In this document: piece after piece, positions 2,158 to 24,494 of the stretch
Position numbering within the stretch: the first letter of the stretch is position 1
Layout: every line of letters begins with the position of its first letter
NCBI GenBank assembly: GCA_956465555.1
Contig: OY101121.1
Coordinates: 1,946,722 to 2,010,721, forward strand
DNA: 64,000 bases
Source of the DNA: Nitzschia sp. pyKryTriq1
Lineage: Eukaryota > Bacillariophyta > Bacillariophyceae > Bacillariales > Bacillariaceae
Reading direction: 5' to 3'
The notes under the pieces: model-generated
What the model was told of the DNA's origin: nothing
The model's input: the letters and a program-made list of their open reading frames with translations, nothing else
Database searches by the model: none
Translations under genes and position numbers: made by a program

Positions 2158-3109
2158 TTTGTTTAGTTTAGTTTCGTGGTTGTTGGGTTTGTGAAAGAGA
2201 GAGAGAGAGAGCAAGAGAGTATTCGTTTGGGAAGTCCTAGCAAACGGACGCAGAGGTTACGTATTTCAAAGTATAAATCAATGAATGAATCGATCCGTAA
2301 CAGGGACGGTTGAATCAGTCAGCGTTGTTGTGAGCAAGTCGATACAGGAAGTAGTCTACTGTAACACCTGCTGAATGACAACTCTCTGTCGTGTCCTTCT
2401 TCGTTCAACCCCTCCTCGCTCCTCTCCTGCTTTTGCTCCCCCGCCCGTTCTTTTGCTTGATTGGATCGTTTTCGTTTTTTTCCTTTTGCGGCGCTGCGCA
2501 CACACTCGTTACACGTGCATGCTTCTCTCGTGTGTGCAAGCGCGTGCGGGCATTGGTGGGGTGTCATTCGTGCCAATACCCATCATCAGGTATCCAGATT
2601 TGTAGATAGCATTGAATTGCCACATAGTGTGACATGGCCAAAAAAATCGAACCGTTTGATGCAGTCGGATGAGTCGTCATGGGTAGTAGATGATCGATGG
2701 CTTTTATTGGCTCTGGCACGCAGGAAAGCGCGTCATCCGATCCACCCTTTCTCCCGCCGCACGCTGCGCGGCGAACGGCGGAGACACGGCCGCCAACCGC
2801 CAACCAGATGCATGCAACAAGACCGAACGAACCCAACCTTCATCAACCACTTTGGCGAGAAAATGGCGGACGGATGAGAGGAAAGTCAAAGCAAATCACA
2901 ACTCACAACAACAACACCACCATTACTATTTGTTTATTGTTGAAAGGAGTCAGTCAGTCGACCAACCAACTTTCAGCACAGATAGTATCATCGCTGAGAG
3001 TTGCTTCATTACGAATATCTTCATTCAGTCAGTCAGTCATTGTTATTTACAATTGTATCTTGTACTGTACTGTACGCGGACTCCCTCCGACAGTAATATA
3101 ATATCAGCA
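2158..3109. other. Intergenic between divergent genes
   Basis: No supported gene. The reading frame of the downstream acidic protein is open back to about 2690, but the translation there has no conserved character and the first good start is at 3110. A GA-rich run at about 2198-2218 and a CT-rich stretch near 2390-2480 are the only notable features. Confidence 0.55.
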
Positions 3110-4443
3110 ATGACCATCATGATGTTGTCCGCCATGCGTACTACTACTACTACTACTACTTCCAACGGCGGCAAAAATAATCACCATTACCACCGAGGTA
3201 TTCCCATGCTATTGGCCATGCTGTTATTCGTGGTCGTCATCGTCTCTTCCTCCGAGGAAACGAGTGGTGCTACTGCTGCTACTACTACTGCGAGTGTCGA
3301 GGGGCCTCCAATGACTTTTTTGAGACGGCATCTCTTAACGACCAAAGACGCCAAAACAATCTCTCATGATCACGAAGCGGAGGAAGTTGAAGAGGAGGAG
3401 GTAGAACAAGAAGAAGAAGGCGAGGAAGAGGAGGAGCTCCAGGGAGAACAAGAAGAAGATCGCGAAAGCCAAACGGAAGAGGAGGAGGAGGAGTTAGACG
3501 GCGAGGAAGAAGGCGAGGAAGAGGACGAGATCCAGGGAGAACAAGAAGAAGACCTTGAAACAGAAATGGAAGAGGGTGAGGATCTAGAGGAGGAGGAGGA
3601 GGAACTCGAAGAAAAGGAAGACCTAGAAGAGGAAAAGGAAGAGCTCGAACAAGAGAAGGAGGAGCTAGAAGAGGAGGAGGAGGAGCTAGAAGAGGAGGAA
3701 GAGCTTCTTGGGGAGGAAGAAGAAGAATTTTATGAAACCGAAATGGAAGAGGAGGAGGAGGAGGAGCAAGAAGAAGAGGAAGAATTGGAGATCCTAGACG
3801 AACAAGAGTCTGAGGCCGAAGAAGAAGAAGAGAATCTAGACATCCAGCCTAAGAAGAAAATGTCAGAGGCTGCTGGAAACACGGACGATGGACTGGACAA
3901 AGAAGAATTGAATGACGATGCAGGGGGCGAGCTTGGAGATGACGGAGTTGAGGACAAGAATGAAGGGCAAAATACCGAAGAAGAATATCGACCGGCCGAT
4001 GACGATCCCATTGCCGTCGAAGACGAGGAGATTGTCGAGCAAGTCGAGGAGGAACTTGCCAAACAAGAAAAGGTTGCCCGAACAGCTGGAGGATTCGGAA
4101 TTTTCATTGCTATCGGTGCGATGATTTTTACAGCGCATCAAATGTCGGAAAATCCCGATGGAATCTATGCCAGGTACGTCTTGTAATATGACAGTACGCC
4201 AGAATGCTCGATAATGATTTATCGGGAGCATCTCGCCTAATCTCCTTGGTCTCCTCCTCGTCTTTTTTCGTTGTTAGCGTTTGTCGGTTGGCCATTACGA
4301 TTTGTGGGGTAGTGATCAAAATAATATGCATGCCCTGCCGAAAGGTGATTGGCACTGGAAATCCGCATTATACTGGCCACATGCCCATCAGTACAGTGGA
4401 CTACAGCTACAGAGGGAACGATGCTGGTTTCGAAATGTCATAA
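3110..4443 (+). CDS. Glu-rich acidic membrane protein with conserved Cys tail
   Basis: Inferred exons are 3110-4173 and 4278-4443 (donor caggtacgtc, acceptor ttgttag), giving about 409 residues. The N-terminus has a hydrophobic segment near residues 30-47 (MLLAMLLFVVVIVSSS), a signal peptide or anchor. A central tract of roughly 150 residues is almost all Glu with Leu and Asp, coded by GAR codons at about 3375-3840. The C-terminus has a second hydrophobic segment (GFGIFIAIGAMIFTAHQ). Across the splice junction follows YASVCRLAITICGVVIKII, then CMPCRK and HMPISTVDYSYR. The smooth join at A-S-V-C-R supports the intron. The tail looks like a conserved domain of unknown function. Location is probably an internal membrane. 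Coiled-coil or charge-spacer behaviour of the Glu tract is inference. Confidence 0.65.
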
Positions 4444-4617: not shown

Positions 4618-5868
4618 TTATTCATTGGAGGACTGCGGGTTTAGACTGTCAAACCGTTGGAAATTTTGATACCCTCGTTGTTTGGGGGGAGAGGAGTTGT
4701 CTCTTCGTGACCATTCGCCCTTGGCTCGCTGGGACTTGGGTTTTGGGGTATTTGGTTTCTTCTTTTGGCGGGACGGTTGGGCAACAATGGGAACTCGAAT
4801 CTTTTCTCCACTAGCTGCCGCAATGGATTGGACGGCTGCTTGCGGAAAGACAAGTACGCGTTTATCGGAAGCACCCGGGCACTGCAAAAGATCATCAATG
4901 TCTTGATCGAGCTCGGCTTGCTGCAACAATTCTTCTTCGATATCTCCACCAATCATGTAAAGTAACTTTCCAGTATCCCGTTTTAGCAATTTATGAATCC
5001 AAAAGCAGTAGGTAGGTATCGCTGCCACACTTCGGCCCACACACAAATCAAACGGCGAAAATCCCTTTTGGGCCGCCAATACTTCGGCTCTCTCATGACG
5101 CGTCTTGACATTGGTCAACCCCAATCGGTCCGCCATATCTTGAACAGCTCCCAACTTCTTGCCCACACTGTCCACCAATAAAAAGTCACATTCCGGATAA
5201 GCAATTGCCAAGGGCAATCCTGGAAATCCACCCCCCGTACCGACATCGATGACTTGAAATCGCGACGACGCCGAACCCGAAGAATCATCATCACCATCAC
5301 CATCATGATTATTATTATTGGAGGATGGAAATACACTGTCGTTTCCAGTGGAACTCATCATTCCCAATGGTGCCAGAGATGGAAGAATGTGTCGTCCAAA
5401 TACCACTTCCTTGGTACAATCCCGACGACTCACTAAATTGATGCGAGTATTCCAATCCACTACCAAGACGGCCAAGGCTGCCAATTTTTGGTGCTGTTCG
5501 AGGCTCAACCCCAAATGATCTCGGAGTACCTTCAAAGCTTCCGGCGACGTTGGGTCCATGGCAAAGTCGACTGAAGTACTAGTAGTAGTACTTGTAGTAG
5601 CACTACTACTACTACCACTACCAGTGGTGCTGCTTCTTGGGTTATCTTCCAGTGATGAATGCAATGGGGTGGTTGTGACTTTTGGGAGGCGATGATGACA
5701 AAGAGAATTCTGCGGGTGCTGGTGCTGGTGCTGATGGGGTTTTTTCGTCGTCGTCGTCGTCGTCGAAAGAAAACCGGTGGAAAGGCCCGGCAGACCTAAC
5801 AACAACAACAACAACAATAACAGACACCACGCCATCAGTATTCTTCTTTTCACGGCAAGCATCATCAT
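4618..5868 (-). CDS. rsmG: Plastid 16S rRNA m7G methyltransferase, RsmG family
   Basis: Single-exon product of 416 residues. RsmG/GidB enzymes transfer a methyl group from S-adenosylmethionine to N7 of G527 (E. coli numbering) of small-subunit rRNA. The family core is clear: HILPSL, the SAM-binding loop VIDVGTGGGFPGLPLAI, the acidic strand end LLVDSVGKK, and the later LCVGRSVAAI segment. The N-terminus has a strong signal peptide (a run of Leu after a Lys/Arg start) ending in GLSTGF, so cleavage before Phe would expose a plastid transit peptide rich in Thr, Lys and His. This suggests action on plastid ribosomes. A basic, Pro-rich C-terminal tail of about 60 residues extends beyond bacterial RsmG. 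The family assignment is strong; plastid location is inferred. Confidence 0.88.
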   Translation of the reverse strand: MMMLAVKRRILMAWCLLLLLLLLLGLPGLSTGFLSTTTTTTKKPHQHQHQHPQNSLCHHRLPKVTTTPLHSSLEDNPRSSTTGSGSSSSATTSTTTSTSVDFAMDPTSPEALKVLRDHLGLSLEQHQKLAALAVLVVDWNTRINLVSRRDCTKEVVFGRHILPSLAPLGMMSSTGNDSVFPSSNNNNHDGDGDDDSSGSASSRFQVIDVGTGGGFPGLPLAIAYPECDFLLVDSVGKKLGAVQDMADRLGLTNVKTRHERAEVLAAQKGFSPFDLCVGRSVAAIPTYCFWIHKLLKRDTGKLLYMIGGDIEEELLQQAELDQDIDDLLQCPGASDKRVLVFPQAAVQSIAAASGEKIRVPIVAQPSRQKKKPNTPKPKSQRAKGEWSRRDNSSPPKQRGYQNFQRFDSLNPQSSNE

Positions 5869-18352: not shown

Positions 18353-20891
18353 ATGAGCGAAGTACCGCCGCCCACCCCCAAGCCTACCCCCATCGCCACG
18401 CCAGTTCCAGCAGCGACGCCCTCCTCCTCGCCGGCATGGACGATGAAGACTCCAGGTCGATGGCTTCTCGAGGCCGTCCAGCGGCGTCCAATTCGTAGTG
18501 TCTTTCTCCTGGGCGCCGTGGCCGGAATGACAGTTTCGAGTTACCAAGAACGTAAGCAACGAAAGCAAGAGGAAGCTGAAGATGCCAAGGCAAAGAAAGT
18601 ATTGGTGTTGCCTTTCTACAAGATGAAACTGGTGGAAGAAACCAAATCGAACCCTCTCAGTTCCTTGTTGTCAAACCCTCCAAGCAGTAGTGGAGACAAG
18701 ACGGTCGAAATGAGTATTGATCAAGTGGTCGGTTTGATTCACAAGGCCTCAGAAGATCCTCAGATTGTTGCCTTGTACGGAGTTTTGGGGCACGGCAGTG
18801 GATTCTCAACTGGAGGCTGGGCGCACATGGAAGAGTTGCGAAATGCCTTGTTGGTCTTTCAACAATCGCATCGTCGGCACAAGGAACCGAATCGGTATTA
18901 CTCCAACACAAACGAAGCAGCCCCCCAGCCGAAACCCATGTACTTGTACACCAATACCTTTTCCAATCCGACTCCAAATGGTGGGGCCGATATGAAAGAT
19001 TACTACTTGGCATCGGCGTTCACGCATTTGCATTTGCAGCCCCAAGGCGATTTGAACTTGTTTGGACTGCATGCGACCAATACCTTTTATAGGGATTTCC
19101 TCGCCAAGTATGGCATTACAGTGCATGTGTGGAAGCACGGCAAGTATAAGAATTTTGCCAATCAGTTCACGCACTCCTCCTATGATGCAGCGCACGCCGA
19201 AAATGTCTCCAAGGTATTGGTGGGAATTCATCAACATATCTGCAGTGGCATGTACAAGGCGCGATATGAAAAACTCAAAGACTACGAATACTCCACCTTT
19301 TGGAAGATGGTGCATCAAGCTGGAAGTTTGCCCGCGAGAATGGCACAACGAATTGGATTTATTGATTTCGTACCGCCCTTGAATCCTCTGGACGATTTGC
19401 TCTCCTACCGACGAGAGGTGAATGACGACGACGTCGACGGAAAGAAGAAAAAGAATCCCAACGAGAAGGAAGTCTTGGAGGCCAAGTGGACTCCCTTGGA
19501 CGGTAGTGGCAGTGGTCCGATGACCGACTTGCATCATTTTCCGGCCACCAAACCAATTTCTATTATGGAATACGCCCGTAGAACGAAAGAAAAGGAAAGT
19601 CAAAAGGAACAAGAGTGGAACGTATATGAACGAATCCAAAAACTTCCTGCTGGAATGCGATCCATGTTGGGACTCGTGGGATTGGCCGCGCCCTTTTACA
19701 ATATGGACAAGGTACGTAAGAAGGTTGCTTCGACGATGAGCAATTTTGCCAGTCGTGTGCTAGCATGAATATCATTTCACCGGTTGTCTGATGTTTGCTG
19801 TCATTATTATTTGGTAGTCCGAGTTTGACGAGGCGGAAGCGAAGGGACGGACGGAACAAATTGCAGTGTTGAAGATTGGGGGTCCTATCACTGATGCTAC
19901 GGCTCGCAAACTGGAACGACCCCTACGACAACTCAAAAAGGCGAAGGACAAAGTCAAGGCTGTGATTATTCGCGTCGACTCTCCAGGTGGCTCCATCACG
20001 GCCTGCGAGACGATTCATCAGCAGCTGCAAGATCTGCCCCAAAAAGTGGTAGTGAGCTTTGGCAATGTCAGTGCGAGCGGTGGATACTACATTAGCGCCA
20101 ATAGCGAACGTATCTTTGCCTCGCCCACTACTATTACGGGGTCGATTGGGGTCGTCATGTTGCGAGCGGATTTACGAGGACTCGCCGATCAATGGGGCAT
20201 CAATTTCGATTCCATCCCCACTAGCGAACTATCTGGAAGTTTTGATCCGTTTTATCCCATGAATGGACGCATGAAGGAAAACTTTGCAAATTTCGCGGAT
20301 CGAGCCTATTTGCATTTCAAAAGTCTAGTGAGTAAGGGTCGTGGAATGGGCATGGAACAAGTTGAAACGGTAGCACAAGGTCGGGTCTGGACGGGAGAAC
20401 AAGCCATGAAAATCGGCTTGGTTGATGAACTTGGTGGCTTGGATCGAGCCATTGCTTACTGTCAACGGAATTTCACAGAAAGTGGTCGAGCTAAAGTCGT
20501 AGCTTGGCCACCTAAGAAGAGCCTCTTTCAAGCTTGGGTGGATGCTCGTCGACAACGATTTGGAGACGAAGACGAGGATGAGGATTCGTTGGACAACTTG
20601 GATGTTCCAAGTATGCTCGAAGTAGCTTTGGCAAGCCTAGGCGGTGATTCCTTGGGGCTTCGACGATTACTTTCGGTAGACGAGTCGTCAACAGGGGTGG
20701 CAGACCGACCTGCTGGCAAGGATAGTGCCATTTCGTCGCTGGAAAGCTTGGTGCGAGAAGGCCGGTTGCCTATGGCCATGTCTGGGTTAATGTTAAGTGT
20801 GGATGAGAATGCGGCCATTCGGTGTCTGCTGGAAGAGCACGACGTTCCGGATGTACTCACCAGTTTGCCACCGGGATTTTGGGAAGGCTAA
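18353..20891 (+). CDS. sppA: Signal peptide peptidase SppA, family S49
   Basis: Exons 18353-19711 and 19818-20891 (donor ggtacgtaag, acceptor ttggtag) give about 810 residues. A membrane segment lies near 58-75 (IRSVFLLGAVAGMTVSSY). The protein has the tandem two-domain S49 layout of long SppA. The N-terminal domain holds the general base Lys in HGKYKNFAN. The C-terminal domain holds IRVDSPGGSITACE and the nucleophile Ser in VSASGGYYIS, followed by TGSIGVV. These proteases form membrane-bound tetramers that degrade cleaved signal peptides; plant SppA is a thylakoid membrane enzyme. No clear plastid leader is visible here, so location is open. The C-terminal tail of about 150 residues is acidic and variable. 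Confidence 0.9.
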
Positions 20892-21154
20892 GAGAGATTA
20901 CCGTTGTATACTTTGCATTATGGGATGAATCATCCTTGCTCTGAAATAACATGAAAGATACTCTAGACTTTCACTATGGCCAGTTACAAGTATTATTATG
21001 CGAAGTATAGTTAGTGTCAAAGATAAAAGACGCTCTACTCTCTGTCTAGTAGAGTAGAGACTACGGCCAGTAACATGAAGTATTTATTACCAAGGATTAT
21101 ACTAATTGGATACAAATATTATTCATTGTAGATTTACTGTCGAGGTACAGCTTT
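20892..21154. other. Short intergenic, AT-rich
   Basis: Contains a small TAG/AGAG run near 21030-21065. Nothing else is seen. Confidence 0.5.
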
Positions 21155-21247
21155 GGGAACGACCATACCAGCATGACAGCACCACATCCCGTCCGCTCTG
21201 TGAAGTTAAGCATGCTCGGGCTCGGTCAGTACTACGGGTAGTAGACC
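21155..21247 (+). rRNA. 5S rRNA-like, 5' portion only
   Basis: Ninety-three bases match a eukaryotic 5S rRNA from the first base of helix I: GGGAACGACCATACC, then CACATCCCGTCCG, then GTGAAGTTAAGC, then GGTCAGTACTACGGG. The internal Pol III elements (A box near AGTTAAGC, C-box region to GACC) are present. After GACC the sequence departs from 5S, and no typical helix I 3' strand or T-run follows. The missing 26 bases resemble those at 22940-22965. This is a truncated or split 5S gene rather than a normal copy. Confidence 0.75.
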
Positions 21248-21637
21248 TTTATGTATGTAGAATCAGTACCAGGAGGGTCATGCACCGCTGTTGCAGGGCT
21301 CACTTATGAGATGCACCCCGTTGCACCCCCTGCACATCAACCAAAATTTACTCCCACGACTGCCTGTGTCTCCTTTACAAGATTCATTGGACTAAACATA
21401 GTTGTATCGTGAGCACCATACAATGCCTACATACGCACTGTATGGTATCCACCATACAACGTATCGCAGTTGGCTGTATGGTTGGCACCATACATGATTA
21501 GGACCAGTGCCAAATGCACACGAGTCCTACCAGTCCAATTTACAAGCACCAGTCCTTTTCTTACTGTATCAGTAGGACCGGTGCCAGACCACTCTTTTTC
21601 ACGAAACCACCTACGTACGTAGAATAAGCGTGGATGT
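21248..21637. other. Palindrome-rich stretch after the 5S portion
   Basis: Contains repeated ACCATACA / TGTATGGT inverted pairs at about 21413-21505. Repeated ACCAGT.CC / GGACCGGTGCC words occupy about 21505-21590. The palindromes could form stems. No coding or known RNA family is recognised. Confidence 0.45.
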
Positions 21638-21817
21638 AGTTTCGGGTTTCCGCGCGCAGATCACCGAAACGCCCAGCAGACTAGTTTCGGGTTTCCGCGC
21701 GCAGATCACCGAAACGCCCAGCAGACTAGTTTCGGGTTTCCGCGCGCAGATCACCGAAACGCCCAGCAGACTAGTTTCGGGTTTCCGCGCGCAGATCACC
21801 GAAACGCCCAGAAGACT
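21638..21817. repeat. Four tandem copies of a 45 bp unit
   Basis: Units at 21638-21682, 21683-21727, 21728-21772 and 21773-21817 are almost identical; the last differs by a single base near its end (CAGAAGACT). Each begins AGTTTCGGGTTTCC, contains the palindrome GCGCGC, and has an internal TTTCGG/CCGAAA inverted pair. Because 45 is a multiple of three, both strands stay open across it, giving VSGFRAQITETPSRL on plus and SLLGVSVICARKPET on minus. I see no proof that either is translated. Confidence 0.9.
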
Positions 21818-21959
21818 ACTACCGTTATAGACGACGACGACAGACAGACTAAGAGACGACGACGACGACGACAGACAGACTACTAGACGTCTCACCTCTC
21901 AAAATACAGTACTCGAATACATCTCCATTATTCCTCTGCTGGCACCAACTCCATTCTTC

Positions 21960-22616
21960 TTAACAACACAACACAACACAACACAACGCAACGCAACGCA
22001 ACACAACACAACACAACCCAACCCAACGCAACCCACCCCAACCCAACCCAACCCAACCCAACGCAACGCAACGCAACGCAACGCAACAAAACCACACAAC
22101 AGAACACAACACAACACAACACAACACAACCCAAAATAAAACAAAACTTCTCGCAACGCAACGCAACAAAACCATGGAATCGGAAGACCTCGCTGGGGTA
22201 GAATTGTAGGTCTTGGTTCCAGGCTTGACATAGAACTCGAACCTACCCTGGTGCTCCAGGAGCCACGTGATGTTCTCATCTCCAAGGGTGATGTGGAGAT
22301 TGGCTGCCTTCTCTTGGAGTTTTGCAGGGACTAAAGCTAAGTAAGTTGCAAGGTGGGGACTCCGGGGATCAAGAGACCATTTACTCTTGTACATTTTGTC
22401 ACGATCAGGATTGGTTTGATAGTTGCGCCGACGGTGGTGGGAGAGGAGGAGGGAAGCAGGATGGACAGGTGCTGCTGGATTGGCTGCAGCTTCCTGAGGA
22501 GGATCAACTGGTGGAATTTGATCAGCAAGGTGTGGGAGTGGAATATTGTCGATGTGTTCAACATAGTCTTCGTCATCTTCTTCCTCCTCCAATGGTAGAA
22601 TGCCGACGGATGACAT
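21960..22616 (-). CDS. Orphan ORF running into a pentanucleotide satellite
   Basis: From ATG 22616 about 150 residues look protein-like. The N-terminus is acidic and Pro-rich (MSSVGILPLEEEEDDEDYVE). A Pro/Ala segment follows, then LDPRSPHLATYLALVPAKLQ, GDENITWLLEHQGRFEFYVK and PGTKTYNSTPARSSDSM. Beyond about 22170 the frame continues only because the satellite has no stop, giving a Val/Leu/Cys-rich tail. No family is recognised. Likely a truncated gene fragment joined to the repeat, or a gene whose 3' end was overrun by repeat expansion. Unspliced as read; a splice exit before the repeat is possible. Confidence 0.35.
   Translation of the reverse strand: MSSVGILPLEEEEDDEDYVEHIDNIPLPHLADQIPPVDPPQEAAANPAAPVHPASLLLSHHRRRNYQTNPDRDKMYKSKWSLDPRSPHLATYLALVPAKLQEKAANLHITLGDENITWLLEHQGRFEFYVKPGTKTYNSTPARSSDSMVLLRCVARSFVLFWVVLCCVVLCSVVWFCCVALRCVALGWVGLGWGGLRWVGLCCVVLRCVALCCVVLCC
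21962..22170. repeat. Pentanucleotide satellite (ACAAC and variants)
   Basis: Blocks of CACAA, CGCAA and CCCAA five-base units run in sub-arrays of a single variant each, interrupted by AAAACCA words and an AAAATAAAACAAAAC stretch. It has no stop codon in several frames of the minus strand, so ORFs read through it. Confidence 0.9.
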
Positions 22617-22918
22617 TGCACGAGATGTTGTATGGTAACAACGTTTCAAATACAAATAAAGATAGATGTATGGTTGATACGATGCAAATTGTATTTTTGT
22701 GAGAGTAGGGTCGGTGCGGATGGTGGAAGATGGACGCGACTGGGCGATTGCTACTGGGCAACAGGGATGTCGTAGGGGAATCGTGTGCTGATTGAGTCAT
22801 GTTGCAGCTTTTGCACCCATAGATGCAGCAGTCCTGGCACGTGCAAAATATTATGCAGGCATATGTAAATTATTTATCCTGCAACAGTGCTGGTCGGGTA
22901 GGAGTCCGGGGGGGGGGA
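22617..22918. other. Intergenic upstream of the second 5S portion
   Basis: No supported gene. A run of ten G bases is at about 22908-22917, directly before the 5S-like 3' portion. Confidence 0.5.
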
Positions 22919-22965
22919 CAGATACTACGGTGGGGGACCACGTTGGAATCCCGAGTGTTGTTCTC
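22919..22965 (+). rRNA. 5S rRNA-like, 3' portion, with Pol III terminator
   Basis: The stretch CAGATACTACGG...GGGGACC and ACGTTGGAATCCCGAGTG, ending GTTGTTCTC, matches the last third of a 5S rRNA, and a five-T run at 22966-22970 follows as a Pol III terminator. Its last nine bases, GTTGTTCTC, pair fully (with G-U pairs) with GGGAACGAC at 21155-21163, as helix I requires. The 5' part (93 bases) plus bases 22940-22965 (26) give 119, the usual 5S length. The 5' two thirds are missing here. Confidence 0.65.
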
Positions 22966-23156
22966 TTTTTGTCTTCCTCGTTTTTCATGGATCCGCGCCA
23001 GGGGTCGGGTACCGGGTACGTGGATTCCACGTTGATGCAGTACCGGGGGCATTTTTTGTTGGCAGCAGAAAAACGCAACCGCACACGATAGATAGGGCCG
23101 CGGTCGCAGGTTGTCACACAACACACAACCAAGTCGCATCAACCCAAACAGAAACA

Positions 23157-24494
23157 ATGACGGTAGCTGTAGCTTCCCAACCGGCAGACACTCGGGCCAA
23201 ACGAGCCTTTTGCAGTCATCAACCAAAGTGGCAACGTTTCCAGCCTACCCTATTGAATGTAGAAACGAAAAAAGCGGGGGAAACGGAGAAGGAAACCTAC
23301 CAATATCAACGTCAATACTCTCATGTGTATTCTCAACGGTTGACGGCCCTCCGCGATCGTTGCTGGCAGCAATTTGAGACCATTACCACCACCAGCAACT
23401 ACACTCGTATCAATCGTGTGCTGGAACTGCGGGAAGATGTGCCCAGTCGTATTGTTGGTACATTGGTGAAAGAAGCTGGTGACAAGGACGAAGCACCGAT
23501 TCACCCCGAAACAGAGTGCCGCCCGTCCGATGAACTCTTTTTGGAAGATGAAAGTGGCCGCGTCGCCTTGCAACTGGATCATGTGCACGATTGCTGTACC
23601 GGTCTTGTCGTCGGAATCCAAGGCAAAGTGGACAAGGTGGGAACCTTCCACGTCGAAGAGCTCGTCTTTCCCGCAGCACCTCCGCAACCGAATCTCGAGA
23701 GCCATTCTACCTTGCTTCCAGCGACTGTAGGCTCCGGTGAAAAGGCGCCTCATTTGCTCGTGGTGTCCTCTCTGTTGTGCGGTGACCCCAATGTGCCCTC
23801 ACTCCCCCGTGACATGCTGCTGGCCTACCTTCAAGGACAATTTACGCCCGACGCCGCCAAAGTGTGCCGGGTCCTCCTGGTCGGCGGAGGTCCTTCCGCC
23901 AACACTCAAGACCCACTGTTTGGCGTCAAGGAGTTCGACGCCTTTTGCCTTTCATTGACCAAGACGGGAATTCCGATCGATGTCATGCCGAGCAAGAACG
24001 ACCCCACCACTGCCAACTGGCCGCAGAGGCCTCTTCATTCCAGTTTGATGCCCCACGCAACTGCGATTGTACACCGAACGCCCAATCCGTATGCGGCCGC
24101 CTTGGGTTCCCAACTGGTCTTGGCCACTGACGGAGCCAATATTGAAGATTTGCAACGGCATACTCTTTTTCGGCAAGAGGATGGAAGCACCACGACTGCT
24201 GGTGAGATGGATGCCTTGAAGCGCACGCTCGAGTGGTCTCATATTTGCCCCACTGGACCTGATTCCGTCCCTACCGTTCCCCATATGGATCAAGATCCTA
24301 TGGTCTTGCAGCAACTTCCTCATCTATACGTGTGTGGAAATGCCACCAAGTTTGCGACGACTACTACCGACAAGACCACCTTGTTGTGTGTCCCCAAGTT
24401 TTCCGCCACCGGCGAGGCCGTCTTGGTAAATCTGGAAACCATGGGGGTCGGATTGTTGCGTTTCGAAGAAGACGAATCATCATCGTCGGCGTAA
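23157..24494 (+). CDS. POLD2: DNA polymerase delta small (B) subunit
   Basis: Single exon of 445 residues. This is the OB-fold plus inactive calcineurin-like phosphoesterase subunit that bridges the catalytic polymerase and the other subunits of Pol delta. Visible family marks are the N-terminal FQPTLLN and YSHVYSQRL region, then LFLEDESGRV and GLVVGIQGK of the OB fold. The phosphoesterase part has LLVVSSLLCGD, LLVGGGPSAN, IDVMPSKNDP, LHSSLMPHA, TPNPYAA and ATDGANIEDL. The end reads LEWSHICPTGPDSVP and PHLYVCGNATKF. Length agrees with the family (about 430-470). Metal-binding His residues of active phosphoesterases are absent, as is usual. The protein acts in the nucleus at replication forks. 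Confidence 0.93.
   Translation: MTVAVASQPADTRAKRAFCSHQPKWQRFQPTLLNVETKKAGETEKETYQYQRQYSHVYSQRLTALRDRCWQQFETITTTSNYTRINRVLELREDVPSRIVGTLVKEAGDKDEAPIHPETECRPSDELFLEDESGRVALQLDHVHDCCTGLVVGIQGKVDKVGTFHVEELVFPAAPPQPNLESHSTLLPATVGSGEKAPHLLVVSSLLCGDPNVPSLPRDMLLAYLQGQFTPDAAKVCRVLLVGGGPSANTQDPLFGVKEFDAFCLSLTKTGIPIDVMPSKNDPTTANWPQRPLHSSLMPHATAIVHRTPNPYAAALGSQLVLATDGANIEDLQRHTLFRQEDGSTTTAGEMDALKRTLEWSHICPTGPDSVPTVPHMDQDPMVLQQLPHLYVCGNATKFATTTTDKTTLLCVPKFSATGEAVLVNLETMGVGLLRFEEDESSSSA

Follow-up and report, generated by a model that had tools for sequence, protein, structure and literature searches.

Insertion of mobile elements into 5S rRNA genes is already known, with Mutsu and Dada-5S as examples. As outlined in PMC3706591, Dada elements encode a DDE transposase that has zinc fingers of the CCCC and CCHC types and duplicate 6-7 bp of target sequence (apparently 8 bp in Dada-U1), and Dada-U6 and Dada-U1 are elements without terminal inverted repeats that have short sub-terminal inverted repeats in common with the target gene. 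The Dada-5S lineage, according to PMC8869645, targets 5S genes in ray-finned fish. Mutsu, a zebrafish non-LTR retrotransposon of ~5.5 kb with two ORFs, is also described from 5S genes (PMC11202950, PMC3706591). Cassandra, the Ajax TRIM elements, and SINE3 bring 5S sequence and repeat elements together in another way, in that a 5S-derived promoter segment sits within the element itself, in both LTRs or at the head, as presented in PMC10886601. Jockey-like elements which interrupt 5S-associated satellite arrays in Tribolium freemani, as mentioned in PMC11202950, are a different thing. Narrow-phrase literature searches for split, fragmented, or interrupted 5S genes or for transposons inserted into 5S genes found nothing, and a search combining diatoms and 5S gave no on-point paper as judged by titles or the beginnings of abstracts.

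In this study, we found that a 64-kb window (the whole stretch of DNA analysed, 64,000 nucleotides, eukaryotic by gene content) contains a 5S rRNA gene in two parts. It is probably a single, formerly intact gene into which 1,685 bp, likely a DNA transposon, were inserted at position 83, with an 8-bp duplication. Like Dada-5S, the insert lies inside a 5S gene together with a short target duplication, and, like Dada-U6 and Dada-U1, it lacks clear terminal inverted repeats. Unlike Dada-5S as outlined in PMC8869645, it occupies another position of the 5S gene, is represented by one insertion only, and carries no recognised transposase; furthermore, the host of Dada-5S is a fish, whereas the host here appears, from its gene content and gene density, to be a photosynthetic protist, probably a diatom or another photosynthetic stramenopile. 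The likeness to Mutsu lies in the presence of a mobile element in a 5S gene, but the insert is only 1.7 kb long and shows neither a recognised retrotransposon domain nor an obvious A-rich tail at either end. As in Cassandra, Ajax, and SINE3, 5S sequence adjoins a repeat element, but here the insert stands between complementary parts of one gene, which overlap by only 8 bp and are not repeats of each other, and structures of the SINE3 and Cassandra types were therefore rejected.

Reference 5S genes were obtained by scanning genome contigs for a 21-base pattern taken from the 5S join, which found two contigs, L001 in a Janthinobacterium MAG and L002 in a Spirochaetaceae MAG. Since their 5S genes share the 5S type of the window, both contigs are presumably eukaryotic contamination in bacterial MAGs. 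Full-length 5S genes were reported by Rfam in L002 (102.9 and 96.7 bits) and in L001 (100.9 bits). Against the intact L002 gene, 82 of the 83 bases of the left piece and 43 of the 43 bases of the right piece are identical, and BLAST, which included flanking bases, gave 98.8% over 84 bases and 100% over 46 bases, respectively. The L001 variant is less similar to both pieces (~87% for the left and ~93% for the right by BLAST, with rows assigned to L001 or L002 by Rfam coordinates, both contigs being searched together).

The boundaries of the two pieces differ from those proposed in the earlier note, which had the first 93 bases of a 5S gene at 21155-21247, the last 26 bases at 22940-22965, a total of 119 bases, and a 21-base segment duplicated imperfectly at the break. 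There is indeed a 5S piece on the left, matching RF00001 on the plus strand from 21155 with 55.7 bits (E 6.2e-09 in a search of the window; the gathering score is 38). This alignment is good over approximately the first 83 bases and then passes through a long insertion into a tail reaching as far as 21286, whose non-standard helix I pairs are read as forced alignment. Because the 50 bases past 21237 show no excess of 5S similarity (1527 of 2000 shuffles score at least as high as the real sequence), the left piece ends at 21237 rather than at 21247. The right piece does lie downstream on the same strand, ~1.7 kb away, but alignment with L002 moves its start from 22940 to 22923; upstream of its 8-mer, 5S similarity is again at the level of shuffles (1253 of 2000 score as high). 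The exact repeat is thus 8 bp, TACTACGG, and a 21-bp duplication was rejected, since the flanks beyond the 8-mer are no more 5S-like than shuffled sequence. Judged from the sequence, the duplication may alternatively be an 11-bp one with one extra A, CAG[A]TACTACGG. In the window, with both strands searched, TACTACGG occurs only twice; shuffled windows contain it 0.68 times on average and at least twice in 14 of 100 shuffles. Of the Rfam searches suggested earlier for each part, only that of the left part gave a match. The right piece alone was not reported even at E<=1 over 21000-23200 and was recognised through its identity to the intact gene. At the gathering score, Rfam found no family besides 5S in the window.

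When the pieces are joined once at TACTACGG, the result is a sequence of 118 nt, which replaces the total of 119, and 117 of the 118 positions are identical to intact L002 5S. The sole difference is GGTC for GGTT, within the GGTTAGTAC stretch which is common to both contaminant variants. The predicted fold of the join with two following T (-39.8 kcal/mol) has helix I paired at 9 of 9 positions, as had been noticed before from the letters, and further helices in 5S arrangement. By its fold and by its identity to the intact L002 gene that scores 102.9 bits, the join corresponds to what is expected of a 5S gene (about 118-120 nt, five helices, and conserved loops). The T run seen earlier behind the right part is also there (TTTTT at 22966-22970), and the L002 5S copy at 2869-2986 likewise ends in a T5 run.

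Features of the interrupted 5S locus, with positions in the 64-kb window
Feature	Position	Strand	Basis
5S rRNA gene 5' part, positions 1-83 of 118	21155..21237	+	Rfam RF00001; identity to L002 5S
Left copy of 8-bp duplication TACTACGG	21230..21237	+	8-mer search
Inserted DNA, 1,685 bp	21238..22922	.	between 8-mer copies; junction interiors without excess 5S similarity
Insert left end GTAGTAGACC, stem TACTAC-GG-GTAGTA with adjacent 5S	21238..21247	+	sequence
Imperfect palindrome TGTATGGTnnnnACCATACA, three copies, first diverged, 36-bp spacing	21403..21495	+	repeat search
45-bp tandem repeat, 4 copies	21637..21818	+	Tandem Repeats Finder
ACAAC-type 5-bp tandem repeat, about 35 copies	21963..22134	+	Tandem Repeats Finder
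Coding-like open frame, 149 aa as cut	22170..22616	-	codon score; without family match
TGTATGGT, two further copies, 38-bp spacing	22629..22687	+	repeat search
5S rRNA gene 3' part, positions 76-118	22923..22965	+	43/43 identity to intact L002 5S
Right copy of 8-bp duplication TACTACGG	22923..22930	+	8-mer search
T5 run, presumed original terminator for RNA polymerase III	22966..22970	+	sequence; L002 likeness

The insert contains a short motif that recurs near its two ends. The TGTATGGTnnnnACCATACA palindromes lie ~165-257 bp from the left end, and the two further TGTATGGT copies lie ~235-293 bp from the right end, so that the distances to the two ends are similar. Of the nine copies of TGTATGGT/ACCATACA in the window, seven are inside the insert, where an even spread of the nine would place 0.24. 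No clear terminal inverted repeats were found: the 100-bp ends share an inverted match of at most 10 bp, which was equalled in 54 of 1000 shuffles, and the corresponding counts are 93/1000 for 150-bp ends, 7/1000 for 300-bp ends, and 18/1000 for 450-bp ends, the palindromes accounting for the better score of the 300-bp ends. A run of ten G is found at 22908-22917, just inside the right junction. A second copy of the insert was not found in the rest of the window, which gave only chance-level matches of 15-25 bp (E 0.06-0.8), or in the two contaminated MAGs, which gave only three chance-level matches (E 0.14-0.69). Viral contigs scanned for 5S, a relative of the open reading frame, and the junction contained none of these, with one unconfirmed stretch matching a peptide pattern.

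On the minus strand, a reading frame is open from 22655 down to 21960, through the tandem repeat, and its part from 22616 to 22170 looks like coding sequence. The codon score of this part is 0.146. Gene windows (98, themselves part of the training set) average 0.216; the 490 wrong-frame windows have a mean of -0.010, a 95th percentile of 0.108, and a 99th percentile of 0.172, and the frame thus scores above the 95th but below the 99th. Open stretches within 22150-22922 extend to 215 codons at most, a length reached by none of 500 shuffles. The 149-aa product has no match in Pfam, NCBIfam, or PDB sequences and no relative in viral contigs, plasmids, or phages (the last two searched by tblastn), and its AlphaFold model, made from the single sequence, has a mean pLDDT of 40.2, a value uninformative on the fold. 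None of the 11 frames of at least 50 aa wholly inside the insert reached the Pfam cut-off; the 10 frames other than the long one gave seven sub-cut-off rows from four frames, the best (E 0.00046) in a tandem-repeat frame.

The earlier note had left it undecided whether one gene was split or two independent truncated copies lie here. Since the join reproduces 117 of 118 positions of L002 5S and the similarity to 5S ends at the 8-mer in both pieces, the pieces are best taken as one interrupted gene, and at the level of sequence comparison this split is well supported. That two independently truncated copies should stand 1.7 kb apart by chance is very improbable: the pieces are complementary, in order, and on one strand, and overlap by exactly 8 bp, whereas two random fragments would show an overlap of 4-12 bp in the right order and strand with a chance of ~0.02 under a uniform-break model. 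Neither of the findings named beforehand as speaking against a split was encountered; both pieces fit the L002 variant best, and no other 5S piece was found in the 64-kb window by Rfam or BLAST. Fragments may occur in such genomes, for L001 apparently contains a diverged 5S-like 3' end next to its intact 5S, but a self-BLAST of L001 at E<=0.01 gave no such match. If one gene was split, it could in principle still work, with the insert as a large intron or with the split RNA joined in trans. The pieces are nearly unmutated, with 1 difference from L002 in 118 positions, and the joined RNA is predicted to fold. We nevertheless regard this as extremely improbable, because the T4-T5 runs in the insert, the first at 21556, should stop RNA polymerase III, and the single mismatch hits the GGTTAGTAC stretch.

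As for the insert, the likeliest reading is a DNA transposon that is non-autonomous or has decayed. No DDE transposase was found at the Pfam cut-off in the 11 frames or, for the long frame, in NCBIfam and PDB, and a non-autonomous copy would lack one. Features of a LINE were not seen either, neither a reverse transcriptase (Pfam cut-off, 11 frames) nor, by eye, an A-rich tail; a truncated copy could lack both. The hAT superfamily is characterized by 8-bp duplications of the type nTnnnnAn and short CAGGG-like inverted ends, and was rejected: the duplication is 8 bp long, yet TACTACGG misfits the type and the insert ends do not match. An 8-bp duplication could, however, also stem from other kinds of break repair. 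In particular, end joining at a double-strand break in the 5S gene may have captured 1.7 kb of unrelated DNA as filler, the staggered ends being filled in to give the 8-bp duplication and GTAGTAGACC arising at the left junction as a snap-back copy (inverted GGTC..TACTAC). In agreement with this, the left junction is a near palindrome, TACTAC-GG-GTAGTA, followed by GACC opposite GGTC, terminal inverted repeats are not clear, and the insert is a patchwork of tandem repeats and a fragment of an open reading frame. Capture of filler seems unlikely, as a clean 8-bp direct duplication and a motif near both ends are better expected of a transposon. For the left-junction stem itself there are three readings, namely chance, a snap-back copy from break repair, and an element end mimicking the target; comparable 6-bp stems occur at 276 of 63,800 positions of the window (0.43%). 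The last of these readings would make the insert a Dada-like transposon aimed specifically at 5S genes, with ends that mimic the target (GTAGTA at the left; TACTAC at the right together with the target). GTAGTA/TACTAC does stand in a Dada-type arrangement, although it agrees only loosely with the Dada rule of sub-terminal repeats shared with the target at the same distance and overlaps the duplication, Dada-U6 and Dada-U1 also lack terminal inverted repeats, and a fish lineage targeting 5S exists, as far as PMC3706591 and PMC8869645 describe them. Opposed to this are the single insertion, the lack of any Dada-type protein recognised through comparison with Pfam and NCBIfam families, and the different target of fish Dada-5S within the gene, ATTCCCAGGCGGTC as given in PMC8869645. 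The exact 8-bp duplication compares with 6-7 bp in Dada and an apparent 8 bp in Dada-U1, and counting TACTAC as element end would leave only GG as the duplication. Overall, a target-specific Dada-like element is quite unlikely, and with one insertion and no recognised transposase we did not file the insert as Dada. We would give even a little less credence to the more specific proposal of an undescribed DNA transposon family in a photosynthetic protist, aimed at one 5S site with ends GTAGTA...TACTAC mimicking the target.

Under the preferred reading, insertion of a DNA transposon, the 5S gene would have been cut with a stagger of ~8 bp by the transposase of the insert or of a relative, and gap repair after insertion would have produced the duplication of TACTACGG. 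The split would remove most of the C box of the internal promoter and leave the 3' helix strands apart from the strands they pair with. Any RNA polymerase III that is still recruited should terminate at the T4 run at 21556, and no 5S rRNA would result. From the box positions, we take the left piece to retain, besides box A and the intermediate element, just a few initial bases of box C. On the same strand, the T4 run is the first in the insert and is followed by T5 at 21595. Unlike a functional 5S gene, which is uninterrupted and has a complete internal promoter, the gene is broken after position 83, and because most of the C box and the 3' strands are lost, the locus is very probably a pseudogene, as far as sequence can tell. 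The insertion is probably young, because only 1 of 118 positions differs from the intact 5S gene of another organism.

The locus is thus very probably an ordinary insertional pseudogene of a usually multicopy RNA gene, carrying an unclassified insert. Taken alone, it would be one dead copy of such a gene. The insertion in this Pol III gene is clean, and its target and duplication are directly legible, which gives exact ends for hunting the family of the insert in the genome of the host. If copies occupy the same place in other 5S genes, the site-specific targeting of small-RNA genes by DNA transposons would extend to another eukaryotic group.

The two reference contigs also have repeats and open frames around their 5S genes. 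In L002, near-identical 144-bp copies (99.3%), each with a whole 5S, lie at 1-144 and 2867-3009 in direct orientation, 2.87 kb apart, and one of them lacks one G. The sequence between the two 5S copies includes what we take, by resemblance, to be a Copia-like fragment, which has no Pfam match above cut-off. In L001, a 574-aa frame is present on the minus strand at 1-2460, beside the intact 5S at 3064-3182. A second frame there resembles, judged by eye from its motif, the endonuclease start of a non-LTR retrotransposon, and gave no Pfam match above cut-off; this may be a case of a LINE lying near a 5S gene in a different organism. The putative diverged 5S-like 3' end of L001, recognised by eye, is at 2949-2986 on the minus strand, ~77 bp downstream of the intact 5S.

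In the window, the 5S locus is located between the frame of an S49 peptidase, which ends at 20891, and the gene for the small subunit of DNA polymerase delta, which starts at 23157. The left 5S piece is preceded by an imperfect direct repeat, ACTAtGGCCAGTtACA / ACTAcGGCCAGTaACA, at 20973-20988 and 21060-21075, and an inverted repeat, CTCTACTCT..AGAGTAGAG, lies between its copies at 21033-21059. Farther away, at 4618-5868, this eukaryotic window contains a gene of the GidB (16S rRNA methyltransferase G) family, the product of which is perhaps targeted to an organelle.
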